Below, one piece after another: positions 7,162 to 21,387 of a stretch of 64,000 nt of DNA. The stretch is from the NCBI GenBank assembly GCA_032358255.1, contig JAULBX010026941.1:1-64000 (forward strand), read 5' to 3'. The notes under the pieces are model-generated. The model was not told the DNA's origin and searched no databases. It worked only from the letters and a program-made list of their open reading frames with translations. Every line of letters starts with the position of its first letter. Within the stretch, counting starts at the first letter, position 1. This DNA comes from Heterotrichella gracilis (taxonomy: Eukaryota; Sar; Xanthophyceae; Tribonematales; Xanthonemataceae). The translations under genes and the position numbers were made by a program.

Positions 7162-9214
7162 ATGGCAGGAAACGAGACTTGGACGACAATAGAAAGCGAC
7201 CCTGGGGTGTTCACTGAACTCATAGAGGAGCTTGGGGTCAAGAATGTGCAGGTGTGTCGAGGGTTGATAACGCCATTGGCGCTGCACTCGTTGTACCGTT
7301 TTGGGCATTGTTCTGGAAACAACAAGACACGTTGCAAGCCGTTTACTGCAATTGCAGGTGGAAGAGCTTTACTCATTGGATAGGGAGTCTCTACTTGCTT
7401 TGAAGTAAGTGTGTGTACATTGGCATCCCTGCTTTTGTGGCGTGGTACATATGCATGCATATGCATGCATGACATCTATATGCACCCACTCCTGACACCT
7501 AACTGGGCACCAGGGTCCCCAACCCCAACTTGCTTGCAAGCGTATAAAAACCAGCAAACCCATATTGCCCAATTCATCACCAGCCTGAATCTATTTAACT
7601 ATTGCAGGCCAATCTATGGTTTGGTTTTTTTGTTCAAGTGGCGGCAAGAGAAGGACGACCGGCCCGTGGCAACAGACTATGAAGGGGACGTGTTCTTTGC
7701 CAACCAAGTGATCAACAATGCCTGCGCGACACAGGCCATCCTGGCTGTCCTGCTGAACAGGCCGGACATTGAGCTGGGACCTGAGCTCATGCAGTTCAAA
7801 GAGTTCACGTCTGACTTCACACCAGAATTAAAAGGTAAAACCGAAGGCATGGCATACAACTGCGACGTTAAAAACGATATCCATATCAGCAGTATAAACA
7901 CGAAAGACATGAAACCAAAGGCACAGCATGGATCCATGACAATAAAAAAGACGCATGGCATGTCATGGCATGGCGAGAACCGTGCAGTCTATATACAGAT
8001 GGGTTTATCGTGTCAGTGGTAAATTCAAGCAGGACAAAAGCAGATATATTTTTCCACTGTAAGATATTGCTGCAGGTTACACGCTCCTGACAAGCAGGCT
8101 CTGTGTGCAGGTCTGGCAATCAGCAACAGTGAGACCATTCGGCGAGTCCACAACAGCTTCTCCCCACCTCAGCCCTTGATCCCCGAGGAGAGCAAAACAG
8201 CCGACAAGGACGACGATGTGTACCACTTCATCTCATACGTTCCTGTTGGCGATGCCCTGTGGGAGCTGGATGGGTTGAAGCCAGGACCAATCAAACTCTG
8301 TAAATGCACAGCGGTATGCTTTAACTCTGTTGCATGGGCTACTCTTGCATGGGTCAACACTACAATTACACGAAAGGCACTGTGCACTGGCTTACGCCAT
8401 ATACTATCATTGGCTACCATGACCATCCAACGGGAGAATGTAATTGCATGGGCTACTATCAGCATCCAAAGAAAGCATGTAAAGTCTTGCTGAAACTTTT
8501 GTTACTGTACATGGGGTTGCATTCACATCCAGGGTTTTATCTGCGCAGGATGACTGGTTTGAGAAGGTCGGGCCGCTCATCCAAGAGCGGATCGAGCGAT
8601 ACGCGCGGAGCGAGATCCGCTTCAACCTGATGGCCATTGTGAAGAACCGGAAGGCCATCTACTCGGAAGAGCTGGACCAGCTTTCACAAGCCAGCTCGCA
8701 GATCCAGGACAAGCTGGCCAGCATCTCGCAAGGGGGTGATGCCATGGCGGTGGACGACGACTTGCCCAGCGATGCTGAGGCGCTGCAGCAACAGCTGGAA
8801 TGGACGCAGCATGAAGTGGCAAGGTCAGTCTGGGCGAGTGCCGTGAATTATATATTAGATATTAAATATACATGGACACTTCTGCATTCATTACAGCTTC
8901 AGAATGGGCCAACTCAAGCACTCTCATGCTATGAAGGATTATCTTGCATCATTACCACCAGCTGATGCATGCCGGTACGTGACACAGCACAATGCCTTTG
9001 TAGCATGCATGCATGTGCTCATGTTGATGGCACTGTTCTTTGCAGGATACGATCTCAGATCTCCAATGAAGATGAGAAGTTCAAGCGATGGAAGGATGAG
9101 AACGTGCGGAGGAAACACAACTACATTCCTTTTCTGTTCAACTTTCTGAAGATTCTGGCAGAGAAGGGGCAGCTGCAACCGCTCATCGACAAGGCAAAGA
9201 GCAGCAAAACATGA
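7162..9214 (+). CDS. UCHL5: ubiquitin carboxyl-terminal hydrolase UCH37/UCHL5 family
   Basis: Exons: 7162-7251, 7358-7404, 7608-7834, 8111-8313, 8549-8823, 9046-9214, giving 336 residues, close to the usual length for UCH37. The peptidase C12 fold is plain: Gln79 and Cys85 in [15 protein letters not shown], His160 in YHFISYVP and Asp175 in LWELDGLK form the oxyanion-hole residue and the catalytic triad. The C-terminal helical extension typical of UCH37 follows ([13 protein letters not shown], then [19 protein letters not shown]). In other eukaryotes this extension binds the proteasome subunit RPN13 and the INO80 complex; the enzyme trims ubiquitin chains on proteasome-bound substrates. All catalytic residues are present, so it is expected to be active. 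A TGTAA poly(A)-type signal follows the stop codon. Confidence 0.96.
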
Positions 9215-10142: not shown

Positions 10143-13100
10143 CTAGACCCGGCCTGGCCCCGCTGTGGCGGACAGGTCCGACCCATCCACCTCGGGATCG
10201 GTGACGTAGCCCTGGTGCCGGGCGGTGTGCGCAGCGCTGCTGCCGCTGGTCATGGAAGCGTTCTCGGCGCGCTCCCGGTCGATGCGGATGGCCACGGAAC
10301 CCCGCTGCTGCGCCTCACTTCCTGGCGCGCAGATGGCCGCGGGGAGGTATGCGGAGTCAGCAAAGCTGGCGTTGATGTTGGAGATGCCGGACGCAGCGGG
10401 CGGCAGGCCTGCGCCATGCGGTAGGGGACCCGGCAGGTCGTGGACTGTCACCGCCACCTCAGCTGGGTGCTGTGGAGGCTGCTGCGCCGCTTGCGGGCAG
10501 TCCTGTGGGTCGGCTGAGCGGCGGAAGAAGGAGCGCAGCTTGCTGCCGGATTTGCTGGACTTGCGGGGCGCGACGGCTGGCGGCGCATGGTCGCCATCGC
10601 TGCAGCACACAGCAAAATAACCGTTACCATTACAGTTACAAGTGTTGTTCCATCCACACATAAATGCGTGCCCTTGGGGATGCGTCCACAGAAGAAGCGA
10701 AACAAACTTTATGCGTGCATGGCGAGCGAGTGGGGCATGCAAGCACTGCTATATTCTCAACTGACGGTTAAACTAACATCTACGGCTGGCCCCAAGCTAT
10801 CATATACAAAAGGTACCTTGTGCCCTCCCCCAGAGTCCCTTCTGTCAGTGCCCGCCGCGTCTTTGCGCGTGCGGTGCGCGCAGCCCTGTCATCGGGGGCC
10901 GAGTGCCTTCGCCTGTTGCCAAACATGTCCATCATGTGCCGCCGCTTGCCTGACTGAGCCACAGGCGAGGCCTCCCCTTCCTGCACAGGCCCACCCTCAG
11001 CCTCCTGCAGAAACACAGGACGGATATGAGTTAGGGGATGTTACTATCACTGATGTACTAGCATTATGTGCATTCCGGCACAAAAGCCGGATCATCAATC
11101 AGCCTTGCACAAGCTTGCGCCAATCAATTCTGCCATGCCATTGCCTGTACCATTTTTATATGTTGCAAGCCTGCAGGTCCTTCATAACAATTAATATCAA
11201 GGGTTTGAAAACAAGCCCTCGTTGCTTGTTTACCACTTCTAACAGTTCATAAGAAGTAAAATTCACTAGAAAATTCATTACCAAGTTCTACAGTCCTAAA
11301 AAACCAATTGTGAATTTAATATAAGAAATATTGGTACCTGGTGAGCGGCTGCCGCCGCGCCCTCCCTGCGCAGGCGCGACGGCGACGGGAAGCGGCGGCT
11401 GCGGCGGGTGGCGGGGTTGCTCAGGCTGCGGGGGATGTTGGGGGGCGGCTCGGGGGGCTCCGGCTCCTTGCTGCTCACAAATGGCGACCTGATTACCATA
11501 AAGCAGTGGGTACCAGCAGGACAAAGCACAAGGGCTGATGGCACCATGGGGAACGCAGCGCTGCTGTGGCATTGCCATGCATATAGCTGCACCAGCCAGG
11601 GTGCTGGCAGGAGGACGCTAAAACATCACCGTAGTATATTGGAGTCCTCCTGGTGATGGGATGCACTTGCACAGTCAGGGTTGGCGATTGGCTGCTACCC
11701 TCAAGGTGGGCACATGCACCCTTCCATGCAACATCAGGGATTTGCTTTCCAGGAATTTGAGACACTAAAAGCATGCATTCCGACTGCCTGCCCCACCCCA
11801 CGATATCCTGGGGGTCAATCAATCTCACTAATCTCAGAAGGCAAGTACAATGCCATCAGCCTGGCAGACTGCAATGCTGGGGCCCACCTGAAATGCGGCG
11901 GCAGGGTGCGCATGCGGTTGGTCCTCGAGTTGCGTATCGGCGCCGGCGAGGAGTGGCGCGAGGATGCGCCAGATGTGTCAGAGTCCATCCCTGACTCGTC
12001 CCGGGATCCCTCACTGGCCTCGGACCGCACGTTGCGGGTGACAGCTGCGAGCGACAGGCACAGGAAGCTCTTCAGCAGGCGGATGTTTGCCTTTAGCCCT
12101 TAAGCGGGCATGCAGCAAGGGAACCACTGATGCGGCAAAATGGTGGTGGTGGTGGTTCTCCTTAGCACGTCCGCAGGTGCAGCTTGTGCAGCATGGAGGT
12201 GGTGATGATAATCCCCATAACTTTGATAATCATTCCAGCACCACCCTTTGGCACCCACACACAACCTCCTAAGCCCTAACCCCTCCCCACTAACCCCAAA
12301 CCCTACCCATGACCTCGAAAACCCAACCCATTCACCCCACACCCTACCCGTGAACTCCTGCTGCAGGCGCCGGCGCGACCGCCCCACATCGTCATCCGAG
12401 AACATGCCCACATTGGTGGTGGACATGGACTCGCGCATGAGCGAGGCGTCGCCGCCGACGCCCCCGCGCTGCGCCCCCAAGCCCTTGCTGCGCCGCCTGC
12501 GGCTTCGGCGGATGATTGAGCCCATGCGGCTGGACAGGGACCCCAGGCGCTGCACCGAGGTGCCGCTGGACTCGCGCGTGGTGGCGTCCATGGTGGTGCT
12601 CACGCGCCTGCATGAGGGGGGGGGACACGTGGTGAGGCGCTGGTTAAAAACCCTGGGCCAATCTTTCGTGTCTGCGGGTGGGGGCACATGCTGGTGTGCT
12701 GGGCCTAAACCGTAAAACCTACAAGGTGGTGCCCATGCTGCTGGGCAGCGTAGGGCACAGCACACACGCCGAGAAGCGCAGAGCAAGCAGCGCTCATGGC
12801 GCAGCCACTCACAGGTCCCCACCTAGGGGTCATACAACATGGTAGCATCACCGCCATGCCATACCCCCATGGGCGCCACCAGTACCATCATATGCATGCC
12901 ATGGCGACACCAATACAACGACAAACCCCTTGAGGCGCACGCACCATAGCTCCCCTGTTGATTTGGCGCGGGCGGTTGCTGTGTCTGTGGCCATGGATGA
13001 TGGGGAGCGCTCTGTGAGCAGGTCGATGGGCATGCGCGCCAGGCGGCTGGGTAGGTGGACCAGGCTGAACATCACAGACCGGCTGTGCTTGCGCACACCG

Positions 13101-16100
13101 CTGGCCACCCTGCAGCAACATATCTGTTTTCAGTACCCAAGATACATAGTTACTTCTGGTACAAATTACATTTCCATAACAACAGAAATATTCCACATGT
13201 ATGATTTAGTAATTGCTGTTATACAAAGCCATTATCGGCTATCCTGCGCATAAACTCCAATTGACAACACAGGCTGCCCACTATGCAAGACTGAACGCTC
13301 ATCTGGCTGTATGATTATAATTCAAATGCATGTAACTGACTAACCCTGCAGCGGTGTCAGATGCCTCTGCAACACAGGTCTGATTTGACTGACCTGGCCG
13401 GGAAGTCCCCAAACGAGTTCTTTGGGCCCTGCATCTGCTTCATTGCGCTGGCGGGGGCATCAAAGCAGCGCTCCCTCAGCCCAGGGGTTTGCACTTGGTA
13501 GATGGGCTTGGCGTCGTCCAAACCCTGCGCACACTACCAGAACATGTGACACACGGACATTGCAATCGCGCAGTATCAAAACATGCACAGGATGTGAATA
13601 GAAACTGCTGATCTGGCTGCTGGAACACACGGAGGTAATTAAACTTCAATGCCAATATTAAGAAATAATCCAAGCCGCGCACCATTTCACTGTGGTGGAA
13701 CAAGTTACAGGAGGACATCATCCTGCTAAACTAACCAAAACATTAGCACCAATGCACCCCTCGGTGCCGCCCCATCCCCTCACCCCGCCACCCACCTTGA
13801 GCAGGAAGCAGCCCAGCATCTTGAGGTGCAGCACCTCGCTGTCTGTGGGGGTGCGCGGGGGCTCATCGGAGGGAGTCAGCTCAAGCCCAGACTCGCGCGA
13901 CCAGCTGGCGCTGCGCGCGGTCTGCGGCACACCATGGGAGCCCTCCATCAGCACCTGGCCGGGCTGCGCCAGGGCCGCAACCCGCGCGGCCAGGTTGGGC
14001 AGAGCGCCGAAGTAGTCCGCTCGCCCTGCGCAGGGGCGCGGGGAACATGCACAGTATGTTCTCCGTTTTAACCACCACACCATGACAAACTTGCTGCTGT
14101 CAAAAGCGGTATCGATTAGCTTTTCATATCTCTCCACGAGCACCTGCGCCAGCGCGCCAAAGTGGTCTGCTCGCCTTGCGGGGGCGCAAGGGAACACGCA
14201 AGTGCAGGTCGAGGATATTCCCAGACTTTAACCACCACACCCTGTCAGCGGCTGCGTTTCTTCAATAAGGTGTGATTGAATCGAGGCTGGCAATGCCTTC
14301 CAGTGTAGCTGCAACTGAAAGAGAGCAGGGAAGGGTGCTGACCTGTGTTGAGCGGCTTGCGGTTGCCCACCATGCCAAACGCCATGCCCATGCGCACCCG
14401 TAGGCCCCGCCAGATGACGCTGCCATTTGTGCCCCGCTCCGTTCTGCACTCGCTCAGGCGCAGCAGCTCCTCAGGCCAGGGCACATCCAGCAGCGCATGC
14501 TGCACAGCCACAGCCCAGCGCAGGGCGTCCTCCAGCCTCCTGCACGAGTAAGAATAAATGATAACGAAACCCGCCACGGCTCAGAAAACGCATAGACATA
14601 GCTTCCTGAATAGCCCAGCTAGCCAGCATGCTTAAAACCATCATCAACCTCAAACCCTAGAGTTTGGACGTCAGGTAAGCTCCCACGGCCAGGTTTGGAA
14701 AATTCGACACTATCACAAGGTATGAAGATATAGGAACAACGTAATTAATGTGCAATTACCTGAAGGCCAGCGTGAATTTGCCTGGCTCCGGCTCCTTGCA
14801 CTCATAGCCCTCATACAGCCTGGTCAGTGAGCGCACCACCTGCACGCACTGCAGCATGGCCTGGTGGAACACAGGCGCCAGGCTGCTGGGCCGCTCCCCC
14901 GCCACCGCCTGCTCGCCCTGCTCCTCAGACACAACCTCCTTGGGCTTGGACACCTGGCGCAAGGTACAGCAGGGATGAGCACGTGAAAAGAAGAAGGAAT
15001 CAATAAGGTTAAAAATGATAGACGGAGACAGCAAAGAACTGAGTGAACGCAAGTGCAATAAAAATAGATATAGAACAAATATGAGCAGCAGATATTCACG
15101 CTACCTGGTTTTAGACCAAGGTTCTTGCAAAGAAAGCGACTTAGGCAATGCGGAGGGCGGTACCCTCAGGGCAAGCATAAAATCCAACCCTAAACCCTAA
15201 CGACTTTTGCCCTGGAACCCTTGCATGCGCGCACCTTGATGAACACAATGGCCACCGGGTTCTCGGGATCAGGCGAGTCCCTGTATCCCGGGGACAGCTG
15301 CCGCATGGTGCGCAGCTTGGGGAAGGTGCGCCGCCCCAGCACAGCGGGGGTCACCTCCATCAGCAGCAGCGGCGCGGAGTACTCTGTGGTGAGCTCGTGG
15401 ATGCCCAGGCTCAGGACCTGCGGCAATAGGAGGAGTGTCCTTAACCTGTGTTGGAAGTTTTGCAATGTAGTTGTTTTTTGTGCAATGTTGGGGGATTGGC
15501 TGGAGAACTGAGTTGAATTGGATTGGGGTATATAAATAGCTATGCAAGACACTCAGTCTTCACCTTGAGGATGCATAGGCTCAGAGCCAGCAGGGTGTGG
15601 AATTCACGTTTGCCCAGTCCAGATTGTCTCATCCACTTCTAGGGCGAAAATGACACAAATGGCTTAACCCTAAACCCTAATGGCGCACCTGCGACTGCCC
15701 CGGTAGCTGGTCCTGCACCGCAGCCCAGGCGGACTCCGACAGCACCACCTCCCCCCCATGCACCACCATGCACAGCACCCAGGTCATCTGCTCCCCGTGG
15801 CCCGAGAACTTGCAGGCGTTGGGCCGGGGAGGGATGGGGGCCAGCTTGCGCCTGCACAGGATTTCCAAGTATTGGAAAAAACGGTAAAAACAATAAAGCA
15901 AAACTTAATTTCTGCCTCTGATCTTAACATTTAAAAGTTTCAAAAAAGAAGTAAAAAAGTTTTGACTGTTTCCCTTTAGCCAGAGGTGGGGTACAGCGAG
16001 CGCATGCGCAAACCAGGCCAGTATTTGGCAGCAGGGAGTCAATGCCAAGTACAAATGCTTGGAGGTGCTTACGTGAAGTCCATGGTCTCGTGCACAGCCA

Positions 16101-19100
16101 TGGCCACCCGCGGGCCCTTGAACAGCAGCCGCTCATCCGCGCCAAACTCGGTTGGGCCAGACACCTCGGCAGCCTCCGCGGGCCACACCGATGCCATCAA
16201 GGCCAGCTGGGCGGCGTGTGCAAAGCGCAGCGCCTCCAGCGTGGTGCTGAAGGCCAAGCGCACGTGGCCCTGTGCGGGACAGCAGGCAGGCCATTTAATG
16301 CAGTTCCACTCCAAGTCCAACTCAATTCCAATGTCAGCATTCATTTTATTTCAATAAAATCTCCGATTGCATTCGAGTTCACTTCTCATTTACTTCCATT
16401 CCTGCCTCATGGATCAGCCCACAGTTGCAGAACATAGGACACATAGAAGCGGCATGACACTGTGTCTATGTTGCACCTAGTAGGAGGAGCATGCAGGATG
16501 ACAGGCGCCGCAGCCACCGCAAAGCATGCAGGGGGGGCGCTCACTCACCGCCACGTCATCTATAAAGTAGATGAAGCCCCCAAACTGCATGGCAATGGCG
16601 CCCATCACCTGCTGCAGCTTCCTGCCCACCGCGTGATGCAGCTGCTTGCCGGGGCAGTCCTCCAGGGCCACTCGGCATGCCACAAACGCGAGGGTGCCCT
16701 GTGTTGGCAAACCAACTTGCTTAATCACTCGTTATCCATCACAGTGTCGCATTGCCAACACTGATACTGGTGGCTGAATGGGAACTGGAGCCTCAAGTTA
16801 GATCACCCAACTCGCCCTCCATAGAAGCTTCCAAGCCAAATTCTGCTACATTCTTGTGTTCAAATTAGCTGAAATTACTTTGGCAAAAACCCCAGTCTTA
16901 TCTTGGTGGGTAATGACATCGACAATGCTTTCCTCCCACCTTTTCTGGCAGTGGCTCGGGGGGCGGCATGATGAGGACACCCCTGCCAGGTTGGGTGGCC
17001 TTGTTTGTTAATCGGGGCGGGGGGAAGCTGCGCCACAGAGGCTTTCCCAGCTGATGTGTGACCTGCACACCACAAGCGATGATGGATATTGAGTATGAAC
17101 TGTGAATTTCAATGCAAGGATGAGGATGCTACGCCACGTGCATGGACCTGCTATCGTATAAGAGACGCAGACGATGAGACTATCCTCAACAATGACACCT
17201 GAAAGCACGCTATATAATAACAAATAACCTCACCTGCTGAAAGTGTTTTACACCAAAAATAATCAAAATAAACCCTGCAGCTGCTATCATTCAACTTGGC
17301 ACGCATGTGACAACCCTCAGGCACCAAGACCACCCATTGGACCACCAACCACACACTCCTCCCCAGGACTCGCCTGATAGATCCACATCGCGTTGGGCCA
17401 CGCCTGCAGCTTGAACAAGCCCAGGTCCTCAACCACCGGGAAGTTTGCCTGGGGCATCCTGTCCCGCAGCTCCAGCACAGCTGTGTCGGAGATCAGCACC
17501 TGGCCCCCGTGCGCTGCATCCGCCAGTTCATGCGCAATCATGTAGCCTGGCCCGGTGAACACCCTGTGCTTGGTCAGCATGTGCAGCCTGCGTGCACCAG
17601 AATGCGTCAGTGGTGTTTGTATATGAAATAAATACGTAAACTTAGATTTTCTATAAAGGGTAACTTTTTTATTATTCGAAAATGAAAATTTAAATTCTAT
17701 TTACAACTAATGGGATAGGCAGGGGCCCTTCCCATGCAGCTGTCGGTAGAAGCTCCACTGCGCCTCGTTGGCTCAGCAGTCCAGTGTGGCAGATCCTTTC
17801 TTAGATGATTGCTTACCAAACCAATATCGGGAGCAACGCTCCCGCGGCAAAACACCCGTGCCATTGTTAGGATGTACATTTTGGTATATAGTTATCATTC
17901 AATGGTTGATGACTAAGTCACCCTTTATGCAGGTGTCCATGCCAAGCACCCACCTGTGCGCCACTGTCCCCTGTGTAGCCCAGTGCACCCCCATCCGCAC
18001 CCTTGGTCCAGCAAACATGAGCTCCCCCATGGGGCCATGCTGCTCCTTGCAGGCCGGCATGCGCAACACGTGCCGGGTCCACTTTGTCTCAAGTAACCTT
18101 CACAGAAAATGAGGTACATGAACAGGTGGAGGTACATTGAAAGGTAGGAGGTACATTACAAAGAATGGGTGGCTGTACATTACAAAGAATCTCCAACGGT
18201 GTTGAATAAGAATAGGTGGAGATACGTTAAAAAGAAGGTCCAGGAACAGGTGGAGGTACATTACAAAGAATCTCCAATGGTGGTGAATACGTTGCAATGC
18301 CGGCAACACAATACCCACAGCGCAGATTGATGCACGATGCAAGCACCATGCACCACAGCCATGCTGCCAAGTGGGTTGCATACCGGTACTGGGTCTCCAT
18401 GCAAAACATGATGGCCTTGGTCATGTCCACAAAAGCGATGTGGAACGCATCCCCTTCAGTGTTGATCTCGTAGCCTTCAAACTTCATAATTCCTTCCCTG
18501 ATGACCTGCGGCAGCGAGACCCAGACATAAGCATGACCTCGATATGTTGCAAAGCAACTGCATGAGAAATTTGAACCACAGCAAGCCAGTCATTGAGCAT
18601 CCCACACTGTGCCGCTGTCAACCCAAAGAAAAATATAAAAATGTGGGATTCACACAAGTAGGTGCAACCACCCACTGCCACATACCGAGTCATGGACAGC
18701 CTGAATCTGCTTGAATGCTTCAGGATTGACGCTGGCTTGTGCGGTTGAGCTCTCCAGATCAGTGATGACGAATGCGACTTCTAAGGCGTTCTTGAACTCC
18801 TCCTGCTCCTGCCTGTTGTGGTCTGGTTGTGTGTTCACCACATTGTACAGCAGGGTCTTCAAGGCTTTGACTTGCAGCCTGTATTGGGCCCGCTCGACAA
18901 ACTTCGCATCCCACCTGTGAAGGACAGGCACATTTATTGATGCCATGCGAGGCTGAATGCACAATGGCGCCACAATCCTTGCCCTACGGTGCTGGCATCA
19001 CTGGTTAGCACTGCTGACTGCTGAAGGTATAGCAAGTACCTGCGCTTGATGAAGTAGCCAGCAATGGCAGCCAGCAGGACCAACGCCACAGAAGATGCCA

Positions 19101-21387
19101 GCACTATTCCTATGATGACTGGCGCCGACAGACCACTGGAAGCCAGAGCAATGGTCACAGGTGATGAGTCGTCATCTCCCCACAAGCCAGCTGCATTTTG
19201 CGCATACACCCGCACAAAGTACTGCTCCCCTCTGTCCAGCTTAAGGCCTGCACAAACATCAACTACATGGGTGCTGCCAACTGCTGCATTCTTGGGAAAT
19301 CGCAGGTACATAGCCATCAAGACTAGTTTTTTATTCGTTTGTTACATGCATGCCAGCAAAACAGCCAGATTAGCAGTATTTCTTGCACATGCAGCGCCAA
19401 GAAGTTGATACTCATGTACCCCTAGCATGAAGGGATATGCTGTCCGCCCACCTGTCACAATGGCTTGCCGATCTTTCCCACAGGGGGTTGGAGGATCTGT
19501 CACATTCTTCCAGTAGTATCCACTCAGGCCGCTGATCTTCACAAACTGCATCACCTGATATGCATACTGCTTCACACCAGTGGATGGATCAACAAAAGGA
19601 TCCCAGGAGGCCCTGCATGACACAAACGGCAGGTATTGGCTAAATGAGTACGGTAATCACCTCTCATTTCACAATTGTTTTGTGCACGATTGATGCACAA
19701 ATAGAGACACCATATTGCATGGACACAAACGTAATGTTTACAGGATCATCTCATAGCAGGGAACTTTGCAACCACTGTTCAAAGAGTGATCCATGCAACC
19801 CCTACATGATGGTGTCTGTGCTCTCTTGATCAGCTTCCGCTGCCTGGAATGTGTAGGTCATGTAGATGGAGCTGTTGGCTGGCAAGAATGGTGGCGTTGA
19901 ATCAACCTGCAGTCCGCATTAGATGCATCAAGACAAGCACATTTGATTAATCATGCATGCCGTATACTCGATGCCATGTCATGCAATTCAACATGCAAAT
20001 GACCAAATCAAGCACATGACATCCATCATACTGCGCCACACAACCCACACTGACTCTTGCGTTGCCAATGAACTGGGCCCAGGTACTCACAATGAACCCC
20101 TGGCTGGTGATGGTAGTGGCACGCTCGATGCCTGCTTCATTCCTGCCTTGCACAGTGACAAAGTACTCCTGCCCATCAAGGAGTGCCAACCGCTTGCTCT
20201 CCGAGATCACGGTGTACACATCCACGTCGACGTTGGTTCCATTAGGCAACGCGATTGTGACTGACTGCGTGTTGTTATCGTTAGGGATGAAGGGCTGATA
20301 TGGGTAGATGTCCAGGCCACCAGGGGATGTCCCCAAGCCCCAGGAGTATCGAATCACAAACTCAAAAGCTGGAAATGACTGCCTCAATAGCTGCACTGGG
20401 CCGGTAAGGTTGAGCTCAAAGTTGGTGAAGTTGAACACCATGTACTTGATCTGCGTCCAATACGGCGGCACCATAACCCTGCAGTGGTGCGGGGACCACT
20501 TTCAGAATGGTATGCCAATATCGTAATGAAGAGTTTATAATGAAAGGACTCTGCAGGGTACAGGGCAAGGGGAACTGGACCAACACAAGCAGTAGAAGGT
20601 GCACACTGTACCTGCAGCCTTGCTCTTCAAGGCATATGGGAGGCTGTATGTTGCAGAAGCCCCCTGTCTCGGCTGAGTCCAGAGTGTTGATGAGGGAAGT
20701 GTTGGTCACATCCCACACGCGGCTCCTGAGGCACTGGGGAACGATATCGCACAGCAGCAGGTTGTCTTCGATGCGCAGCGTGGATGTGACTGTGCTGTTG
20801 CACCATGAGGCTGGCAGTGGCCCAGTGAAGTTGTTGCTGTCCAGGAAGACGTCTGTGACCAGTGGCAGGCGCCCCACCCACGCTGGCAGGCTGCCTGACA
20901 GCCAGTTGTCTGTCAGTACAAGCTGCTGGAGCTTGGTCAAGCTGCCAAGCTCGTCTGGAAGGGAGCCGCGCAGGTTGTATCCCACCAGCTGTAGGTTCTG
21001 CAGCTCTGTTAGGTTCCCAAACTCGGCTGGTATGGTCCCGTTCAGGTCACCAGGCACGGGCGGCTTCAGGTTGTTGTTAAAGGTGACCTGAAGTACCCTC
21101 TGATAGGGTGTTGCCCCCAGTGCGCTGCACGTTGCTGGAGCCAGTGCGGGGAACACTATGGAGCAGTTGCACGAGACACCCGCCCAGGAGTCCGTGCAAG
21201 GGTCTGTGCTGGGCTGCCAAGAGGCCAGTAGCGGGTTGACTCCATCTGGGAAGCTGTTTGCAGCCTTGAAGGCCAACAGAGCATCCTTGTCTGAAGGCAG
21301 AGTGACCAGGCCCCCTGGAGTAAAGCTGGCCACAATAAACGCTACCAGCAGGGCCTGGCCAGCCCTTCTGTAACCAATGCGCGCCAT
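10143..21387 (-). CDS. receptor-like class III adenylate/guanylate cyclase (LRR - FN3 - TM - three cyclase homology domains)
   Basis: Twenty-five exons: 21387-20612, 20478-20091, 19906-19806, 19612-19452, 19247-19040, 18914-18686, 18505-18384, 18097-17954, 17587-17374, 17062-16940, 16698-16549, 16269-16073, 15851-15689, 15638-15564, 15417-15235, 14953-14760, 14539-14343, 14025-13796, 13524-13394, 13109-12945, 12607-12348, 12044-11888, 11488-11338, 11004-10817, 10599-10143. All phases close on one frame of about 1787 residues. Order: signal peptide (~1-28); plant-type LRR cap and LRRs (~31-210); FN3-like repeats (YFVTVQGRNEAG, YFVRVYAQNAAG); transmembrane helix (~515-540); cyclase domain 1 (~590-800) with Asp597 in FVITDLESST and Asp640 in NTEGDAF; degenerate domain 2 (~823-992); domain 3 (~1018-1285) with YECKEPEPG and GRADYFGALPNLAARV; a basic, Ser-rich tail (RRSRRRRSK). 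It probably makes cyclic nucleotide inside the cell in response to an outside ligand. Lys rather than Glu at the substrate position of domain 3 favours cAMP, which is an inference. Confidence 0.92.
14086..14250 (-). pseudogene. decayed duplicate of cyclase exon 18 inside intron 17
   Basis: Between exons 17 and 18, about 14086-14250 repeats the exon 18 start and its upstream intron (true copy about 13950-14085). Shared words include CGCCAAAGTGGTCTGCTCGCC versus CGCCGAAGTAGTCCGCTCGCC and TTTAACCACCACACC. The decayed copy lacks a usable acceptor AG and has lost the NLAARV stretch that contains the transition-state residues. Confidence 0.7.
18112..18296. repeat. intronic minisatellite in cyclase intron 7
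   Basis: Irregular repeats built from AGGTGGAGGTACATTACAAAGAAT, followed in some copies by CTCCAAxGGTGxTGAATA. Four to five degenerate units fill most of the intron between exons 7 and 8. Confidence 0.75.

Follow-up and report, generated by a model that had tools for sequence, protein, structure and literature searches.

The 64,000 nucleotides analysed here, referred to as the window, are positions 1 to 64,000 (forward strand) of contig JAULBX010026941.1 from the xanthophycean alga Heterotrichella gracilis. The minus strand of the window carries a predicted gene for a receptor with three class III cyclase domains, named D1, D2 and D3 in the order of the protein, and the residues of one catalytic site are divided between D1 and D3. 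An earlier reading made from the letters of the DNA (the sequence-only reading) had placed this division in the interval 13796..18914. In the present model, this interval runs exactly from the first nucleotide of exon 6 to the last one of exon 17, while the gene itself extends past both ends. The model and its parts are as follows:

10143..21387, minus strand: predicted receptor-cyclase gene, 24 exons, 1775 codons with the stop, corresponding to 1774 residues
20612..21387, minus strand: exon 1 (amino acids 1-259), signal peptide, LRRNT_2 and leucine-rich repeat (LRR) ectodomain, from PF08263, PF24141 and hydropathy
19040..20478, minus strand: exons 2-5, remaining ectodomain with a weak FN3 and a single transmembrane (TM) helix, from PF00041 below its cut-off and hydropathy
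16940..18914, minus strand: exons 6-10, linker, D1 and link toward D2, from a hidden Markov model (HMM) score of 138.7 bits and the residues
15235..16698, minus strand: exons 11-14, D2, HMM score of 45.5 bits, profile positions 63-188 of 189
13394..15417, minus strand: end of exon 14 to exon 18, D3, HMM score of 93.4 bits, from profile position 30
10143..13109, minus strand: exons 19-24, Ser/Arg/Pro-rich cytosolic tail, no Pfam family match at E 1

The model was assembled manually, guided by splice signals and homology, with exons 20-24 of the tail placed by splice signals and frame only. Every exon join is in frame and no internal stop occurs over the 1774 codons, while 52 and 42 stops occur in the remaining frames of the spliced sequence. 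The 23 introns comprise 22 of the GT-AG type and one of the GC-AG type at 17374 (donor CAG/gcgagt), at which MWIYQ joins VTHQL without gap or insertion compared to the cyclase profile. The GC content amounts to 0.628 in exons and 0.477 in introns, and the three codon positions show values of 0.62, 0.49 and 0.77 (GC3 precisely 0.771). For the three cyclase domains a GC3 of 0.75, 0.89 and 0.85 was determined, compared to 0.48 in introns. The profile match of D2 ends inside exon 14, in which most alignments also place the presumed first strand of D3. In exon 10, D1 comes to its end and is followed by an open linker; D2 starts with exon 11, and a single phase-0 splice joins D1 to D2. Since exon 14 is common to the end of D2 and the first strand of D3, and exon 10 runs from the end of D1 into an open linker, it is unlikely that the three domains are parts of different genes.

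Two further observations were made in the introns of this gene. The intron before exon 17 contains a partial second copy of its own end and of the exon start (14144-14247 compared to 13964-14087), with direct repeats of 21 nt (90%) and 17 nt (82%) and with GRADHFGAL beside GRADYFGAL. Since an acceptor AG is missing at the matching place, the copy looks like a dead exon duplicate. Minus-strand introns near the exons of D2 and D3 (window 15150-15700) contain TTTAGGG-like runs (ttagggtttagggtt), which we take to resemble plant-type telomere repeats.

For the assignment of the remaining domains, the protein was scanned against Pfam in five pieces. LRRNT_2 (PF08263) was found with an E-value of 7.7e-11, and a plant-type LRR (PF24141) with 27.2 bits compared to a cut-off of 27. 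FN3 (PF00041) reached an E-value of 0.0013 and 19.3 bits, which lies under the Pfam cut-off of 25. In the hydropathy profile, hydrophobic windows at amino acids 10-32 form a signal-like start, and those at amino acids 517-555, with a peak at 531-549, correspond to one TM helix. Twelve N-glycosylation motifs lie within the first 525 residues. Based on this topology, the LRR/FN3 ectodomain would be located outside the cell. The earlier description as a single-span LRR/FN3 receptor consequently holds for the span and the LRR, while the FN3 part stays below threshold. Neither a PP2C nor a protein kinase match was found in the five pieces.

The cyclase HMM comprised 189 positions and was built from 76 bacterial relatives and the trypanosome domain 1fx4, without any sequence of the window. 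The bacterial relatives were taken from the best 80 of 221 in genome contigs, four of which were omitted because their extracted length exceeded 260 residues. An HMM alignment of the three domains to class III cyclases, as proposed with the sequence-only reading, recognised all three as members of this class with the scores listed above, and the match of D2 rules out that this domain is an unrelated filler. The HMM covers D2 at positions 63-188 only and D3 from position 30, and the parts before these positions were placed by MAFFT or pairwise alignment. With the Pfam family PF00211 (cut-off 21.9), D3 scored barely above the cut-off with 22.0, and D1 below it with 19.0. For D1 as well as D3, the closest solved structures by sequence are those of the trypanosome receptor cyclases GRESAG4.3 and GRESAG4.1, with E-values of 1.5e-13 between D1 and 1fx4 and 1.5e-8 between D3 and 1fx2. 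Among all compared sequences, D1 showed the highest identity to bacterial class III cyclases, with up to 37% over 191 columns. Each domain was realigned to 1fx4 in ten ways: five MAFFT settings with 83 rows, two MAFFT runs with a single window domain, and three pairwise gap penalties.

According to section 7 of PMC2576301, half A of a class III site comprises the two metal-binding Asp and the triphosphate Arg, while half B comprises the base-recognition pair, the ribose Asn, the transition-state Arg and the triphosphate Lys. D1 keeps half A with D609, D652 and R722. At the positions of Lys, Asp, Asn, Arg and Lys of half B it carries N648, V731, M738, E742 and Q783, and all eight residues were identical in the ten realignments. 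The corresponding motifs FVITDLESST (amino acid 605), NTEGDAF (648) and GPGYMIAHEL (734) lie in frame. This confirms what had been read for D1, namely both metal Asp, an Asn in place of the substrate Lys, and GPGYMIAHEL where Asn and Arg are expected; the numbering used here is higher by 12 (D609, N648, D652). D3 shows the opposite pattern. It keeps half B with K1118, D1199, N1206, R1210 and K1272 and has no Asp at either metal site, as had also been noted for this domain. Its motifs are likewise in frame (FIKVS 1063, YECKEP 1115, PGKF 1122, ADYFG 1198 and PNLAARV 1205), and seven of the eight positions were identical in all ten realignments. The exception is the first metal position, which was assigned to K1065 in eight realignments and to E1075 in two, but never to an Asp. 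The second metal position was G1123 in each of the ten, with K1124 adjoining. The proposed division of the cyclase residues between D1 and D3 is therefore stable over realignments.

In D2, none of the seven canonical residues was found in any of the ten realignments, one of which (a pairwise run) is plainly misaligned. The seven MAFFT runs place R843, D881, G885, K964, Q971, V975 and T1014 at the seven positions. Including a smaller alignment, the result was obtained in ten of eleven, so that the earlier statement that D2 has lost all catalytic residues is valid except for that one alignment, in which an Asp appears at the first metal site. Altogether, each of the seven scored residues is present once across D1 and D3, while no single domain of the window has all seven. 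The triphosphate Arg is not counted as support, since it is also present in D3 and, in most alignments, in D2, and since the relatives vary at this position.

A comparison of catalytic with other conserved positions points in the same direction. Of the aligned conserved non-catalytic positions, D1 keeps 35 of 45, the trypanosome enzyme domain 1fx4 33 of 45, D3 25 of 38 and D2 15 of 26. At the catalytic positions, D1 keeps two of seven (Fisher p 0.016) and D3 five of seven (p 1.0). Since D1 keeps its structural positions like 1fx4, yet only two of seven catalytic ones, its losses are concentrated at the catalytic positions. If five losses in D1 and two in D3 are drawn at random, the exact partition is expected in 1 of 441 cases, or 2 of 441 in either order, a count which is post hoc and ignores descent. 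Among the relatives with the base-reading Lys, the full set of seven lies within a single domain in 33 of 38, and the metal Asp are present in the other five, too; these frequencies are biased upward, because the motifs of the metal Asp and of the Lys formed part of the patterns by which the relatives were gathered.

Several points speak against an active site shared by D1 and D3. In three alignments the first metal position of D3 is a Glu, and thus a carboxylate, and this site lies outside the HMM alignment. Furthermore, the second metal loop of D3 is longer by one residue, and a long insertion follows the first strand of this domain, which makes the fold near the site uncertain. For D2, the Asp at the first metal site in the smaller alignment (LEDC) is obtained via a gap inside the first strand. 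Finally, the triphosphate Arg of half A also occurs in D3 and, in most alignments, in D2, and its column holds an Arg in 36 of the 76 bacterial relatives.

Taking these observations together, we consider it probable, judging from the residues and the domain order, that the gene encodes a receptor adenylyl cyclase of the single-pass type, in which D1 and D3 form one active site. The two domains would pair head to tail as in animal C1/C2, with D1 contributing both metal Asp and the triphosphate Arg, and D3 the Lys/Asp pair that reads the adenine, the Asn for the ribose, the Arg for the transition state and the Lys for the triphosphate. As the Lys/Asp pair in D3 is of the ATP type, ATP is predicted as the substrate. 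The D1:D3 pair would thus comprise one complete site for the conversion of ATP to cyclic AMP (cAMP) and, at the mirror position, a second site that is dead. D2 may keep the cyclase fold without a working site, and could space, orient or regulate the D1:D3 pair. Binding of a ligand to the LRR/FN3 ectodomain would then, by way of the TM helix and the linker that precedes D1, shift the geometry of the cyclase domains.

The same residues could also be combined between two receptor chains. In such a dimer, D1 of one chain would pair with D3 of the other, and D2 with D2, which amounts to two active sites among six cyclase domains. This is a serious alternative, albeit a rather unlikely one. The single-TM cyclases of trypanosomatids are dimeric, as stated in PMC4534343. 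In the receptor described here, the intervening D2 sets D1 and D3 about 250 residues apart, which would suit a partner in the second chain. On the other hand, animal C1 and C2 pair inside one chain over an insert that is longer than this spacing. Within catalysis by D1 and D3, pairing in the same chain is slightly favoured over pairing between two chains.

It is improbable that the receptor is catalytically dead, with three relic domains serving as scaffold or nucleotide sensor and a complementarity that is coincidental. D2 does look dead, and D1 and D3 form long branches in the trees described below. However, the exact partition into half-sites includes the triphosphate Lys and would be a matter of 1 to 2 in 441 by the simple count, and D1 keeps its structural positions as well as the trypanosome enzyme domain does.

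D1 or D3 could also be complemented by another cyclase protein of the cell. The genome of the alga (68.5 Mb, 903 contigs) was searched exon by exon, and only the best candidates were scored. With PF00211, exon matches were found at three other loci, L001 (1501-1653), L002 (1501-1656) and L003 (1501-1671), while the receptor-cyclase locus itself was absent from the matches. By eye, the three are exons of the guanylyl-cyclase type. Their Asn/Arg helices read ATSTTAELL, APVLAERLQ and TLKVATMLA, in which the Asn is replaced in each and the Arg is kept only in L002; they are possibly degenerate or divergent cyclases. The cyclase domains of the window gave no match around these loci. A second locus of the receptor type was not found by this search, for which the whole protein and one bacterial relative served as queries and whose sensitivity is limited by the exon-wise procedure. 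Three further cyclase exons would provide candidates for such a partner, but since they appear to be of another type and to lack catalytic residues, this explanation is very improbable.

That the three domains are an artefact of the gene model, or a pseudogene, can hardly be assumed in spite of the assembly by hand, the GC-AG intron and the dependence of the D1-D2 connection on the splice from exon 10 to 11, given the shared exon 14, the open linker in exon 10, the uninterrupted 1774 codons and the coding base bias in each domain.

For the receptor adenylyl cyclase with a D1:D3 site, a comparison with known systems shows partial similarities to several of them. As in the animal membrane adenylyl cyclases (class IIIa; AC5 C1 and AC2 C2, 1azs/1cjk), the metal sites lie in the first domain, and the second carries the residues for base, ribose and transition state. 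The division of labour as in animal C1/C2, noted in the sequence-only reading, is thereby found again and even extends to the triphosphate Lys not named there (K1272 in D3, Q783 in D1). In contrast to the two six-helix cassettes of the animal enzymes, the receptor has one TM helix, an extra middle domain and an LRR ectodomain. According to PMC9552081, the animal enzymes are pseudoheterodimers that arose via gene duplication and fusion. The trypanosome receptor cyclases GRESAG4.1/4.3 (1fx2, 1fx4) share the big ectodomain, the single TM (stated for trypanosomatids in PMC4534343) and the cytosolic cyclase, and comprise the nearest solved catalytic domains. Contrary to the algal protein with its three incomplete domains, 1fx4 has all seven residues in one domain.

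The fungal adenylyl cyclases of the Cyr1 type also combine LRR and cyclase in one protein. As described in PMC2939053, they contain a PP2C and Cyr1p is cytoplasmic, whereas the algal protein has a signal-like start and a TM helix. Section 6 of the same source groups the fungal cyclase domains with those of Leishmania and Trypanosoma. The survey reported there in 2010 found LRR-cyclase genes in fungi only among 101 eukaryotes, using PF00211. Since D1 lies below and D3 barely above the cut-off of this family, a gene such as the present one could escape a survey based on it. Of the sequences compared, those of bacterial class III cyclases with the GYEVKTEGDAFMVAF/DYFG motifs (Myxococcota, Planctomycetota, Riflebacteria and others) came closest in identity to the single domains, but differ by the complete set of seven residues in one domain in 33 of the 38 Lys-bearing relatives. 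Plant LRR receptor-like kinases have the same LRRNT_2, LRR and single TM, and carry a kinase in place of the cyclase domains. No description of an algal three-domain or LRR-receptor cyclase was found among the matches listed in a literature search of titles and abstract openings that included few subscription papers, which is weak evidence. A term look-up gave no mention of cyclases in PMC6652019, PMC3446292 and PMC11126685 and no match in PMC2447327; PMC6731263 contains three passages on guanylyl cyclases.

The origin of the domains was addressed with trees of bacterial, trypanosome and animal cyclase domains. After the bacterial rows had been thinned at 65% identity, the first tree included 40 of the 83 rows, and the tree for the approximately unbiased (AU) test 39 of them, the latter with D2 left out. 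D1 and D3 fall with the bacterial set, apart from AC5 C1 and AC2 C2. Common descent with animal C1/C2 was rejected by the AU test for D1 with AC5 C1 (p 0.012), D3 with AC2 C2 (p 0.012) and all four together (p 0.030), while neither a single clade of D1 and D3 (p 0.25) nor one of D1 and D3 with the trypanosome domains (p 0.10) was rejected. These values are to be read with the long branches, the unsettled bootstrap and the naming of the groups after the first tree in mind, and the test shares the long-branch attraction of its model. Since the clades with C1 and C2 were rejected and only one TM is present, the receptor is not a member of the animal C1/C2 family, and the earlier comparison applies to the split but not to the family. 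It also follows from the rejected clades that the split between D1 and D3 is probably independent of the animal one; an independent origin of this C1/C2-like split is the best reading of the sequences, not a proof. In the first tree, D1 and D2 were grouped at 91/93, and their phase-2 introns lie one alignment column apart, both of which are no more than suggestive.

As a tentative scenario, which we regard as possible but doubtful in its entirety, a cyclase of the bacterial/trypanosome type may have been triplicated in a plant-style LRR receptor. Two copies would have decayed so that each complements the other, and the third would have turned into a pseudo-cyclase with a structural or regulatory part, resulting in a directly ligand-gated adenylyl cyclase with three cyclase folds per subunit, or six per dimer. 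The division of labour known from C1/C2 would then have originated a second time, independently, in an alga.

Regarding the distribution of the relatives, scans of viral contigs with D1 and with D3 revealed none. Contigs titled as metagenome-assembled genomes of Klebsiella pneumoniae carry cyclases of the type compared here (L026, L031 and L039). Two of these, L026 and L039, were included in the first tree and sit among its rows of Pseudomonadota and Planctomycetota; the labels are possibly incorrect. In the genome of the alga itself, phosphodiesterase exons (PF00233) were found at two loci with six exon matches, and domains binding cyclic nucleotides gave 25 exon matches. The presence of both makes cyclic nucleotide signalling plausible. 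The family of chlorophyll-binding proteins (PF00504) gave 43 exon matches, as suits a photosynthetic alga; taken alone, this family does not indicate a green one. Elsewhere in the window, a neighbouring exon on the plus strand (7384-8019) matches the ubiquitin C-terminal hydrolases of family 1 (PF01088, E 2.6e-22). Positions 1-1064 comprise Ser/Pro-rich SPPPSP repeats that are open in more than one frame and look extensin-like, without a Pfam match in the one frame scanned.

If the reading as a receptor adenylyl cyclase with a D1:D3 site is true, LRR-cyclases would exist outside the fungi, where the survey of 101 eukaryotes in PMC2939053 had found none, and the alga would produce cAMP directly with a receptor of its cell surface. 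Furthermore, the complementary decay of duplicated cyclase domains would have occurred more than once, and animal C1/C2 would be one case of a repeatable route.

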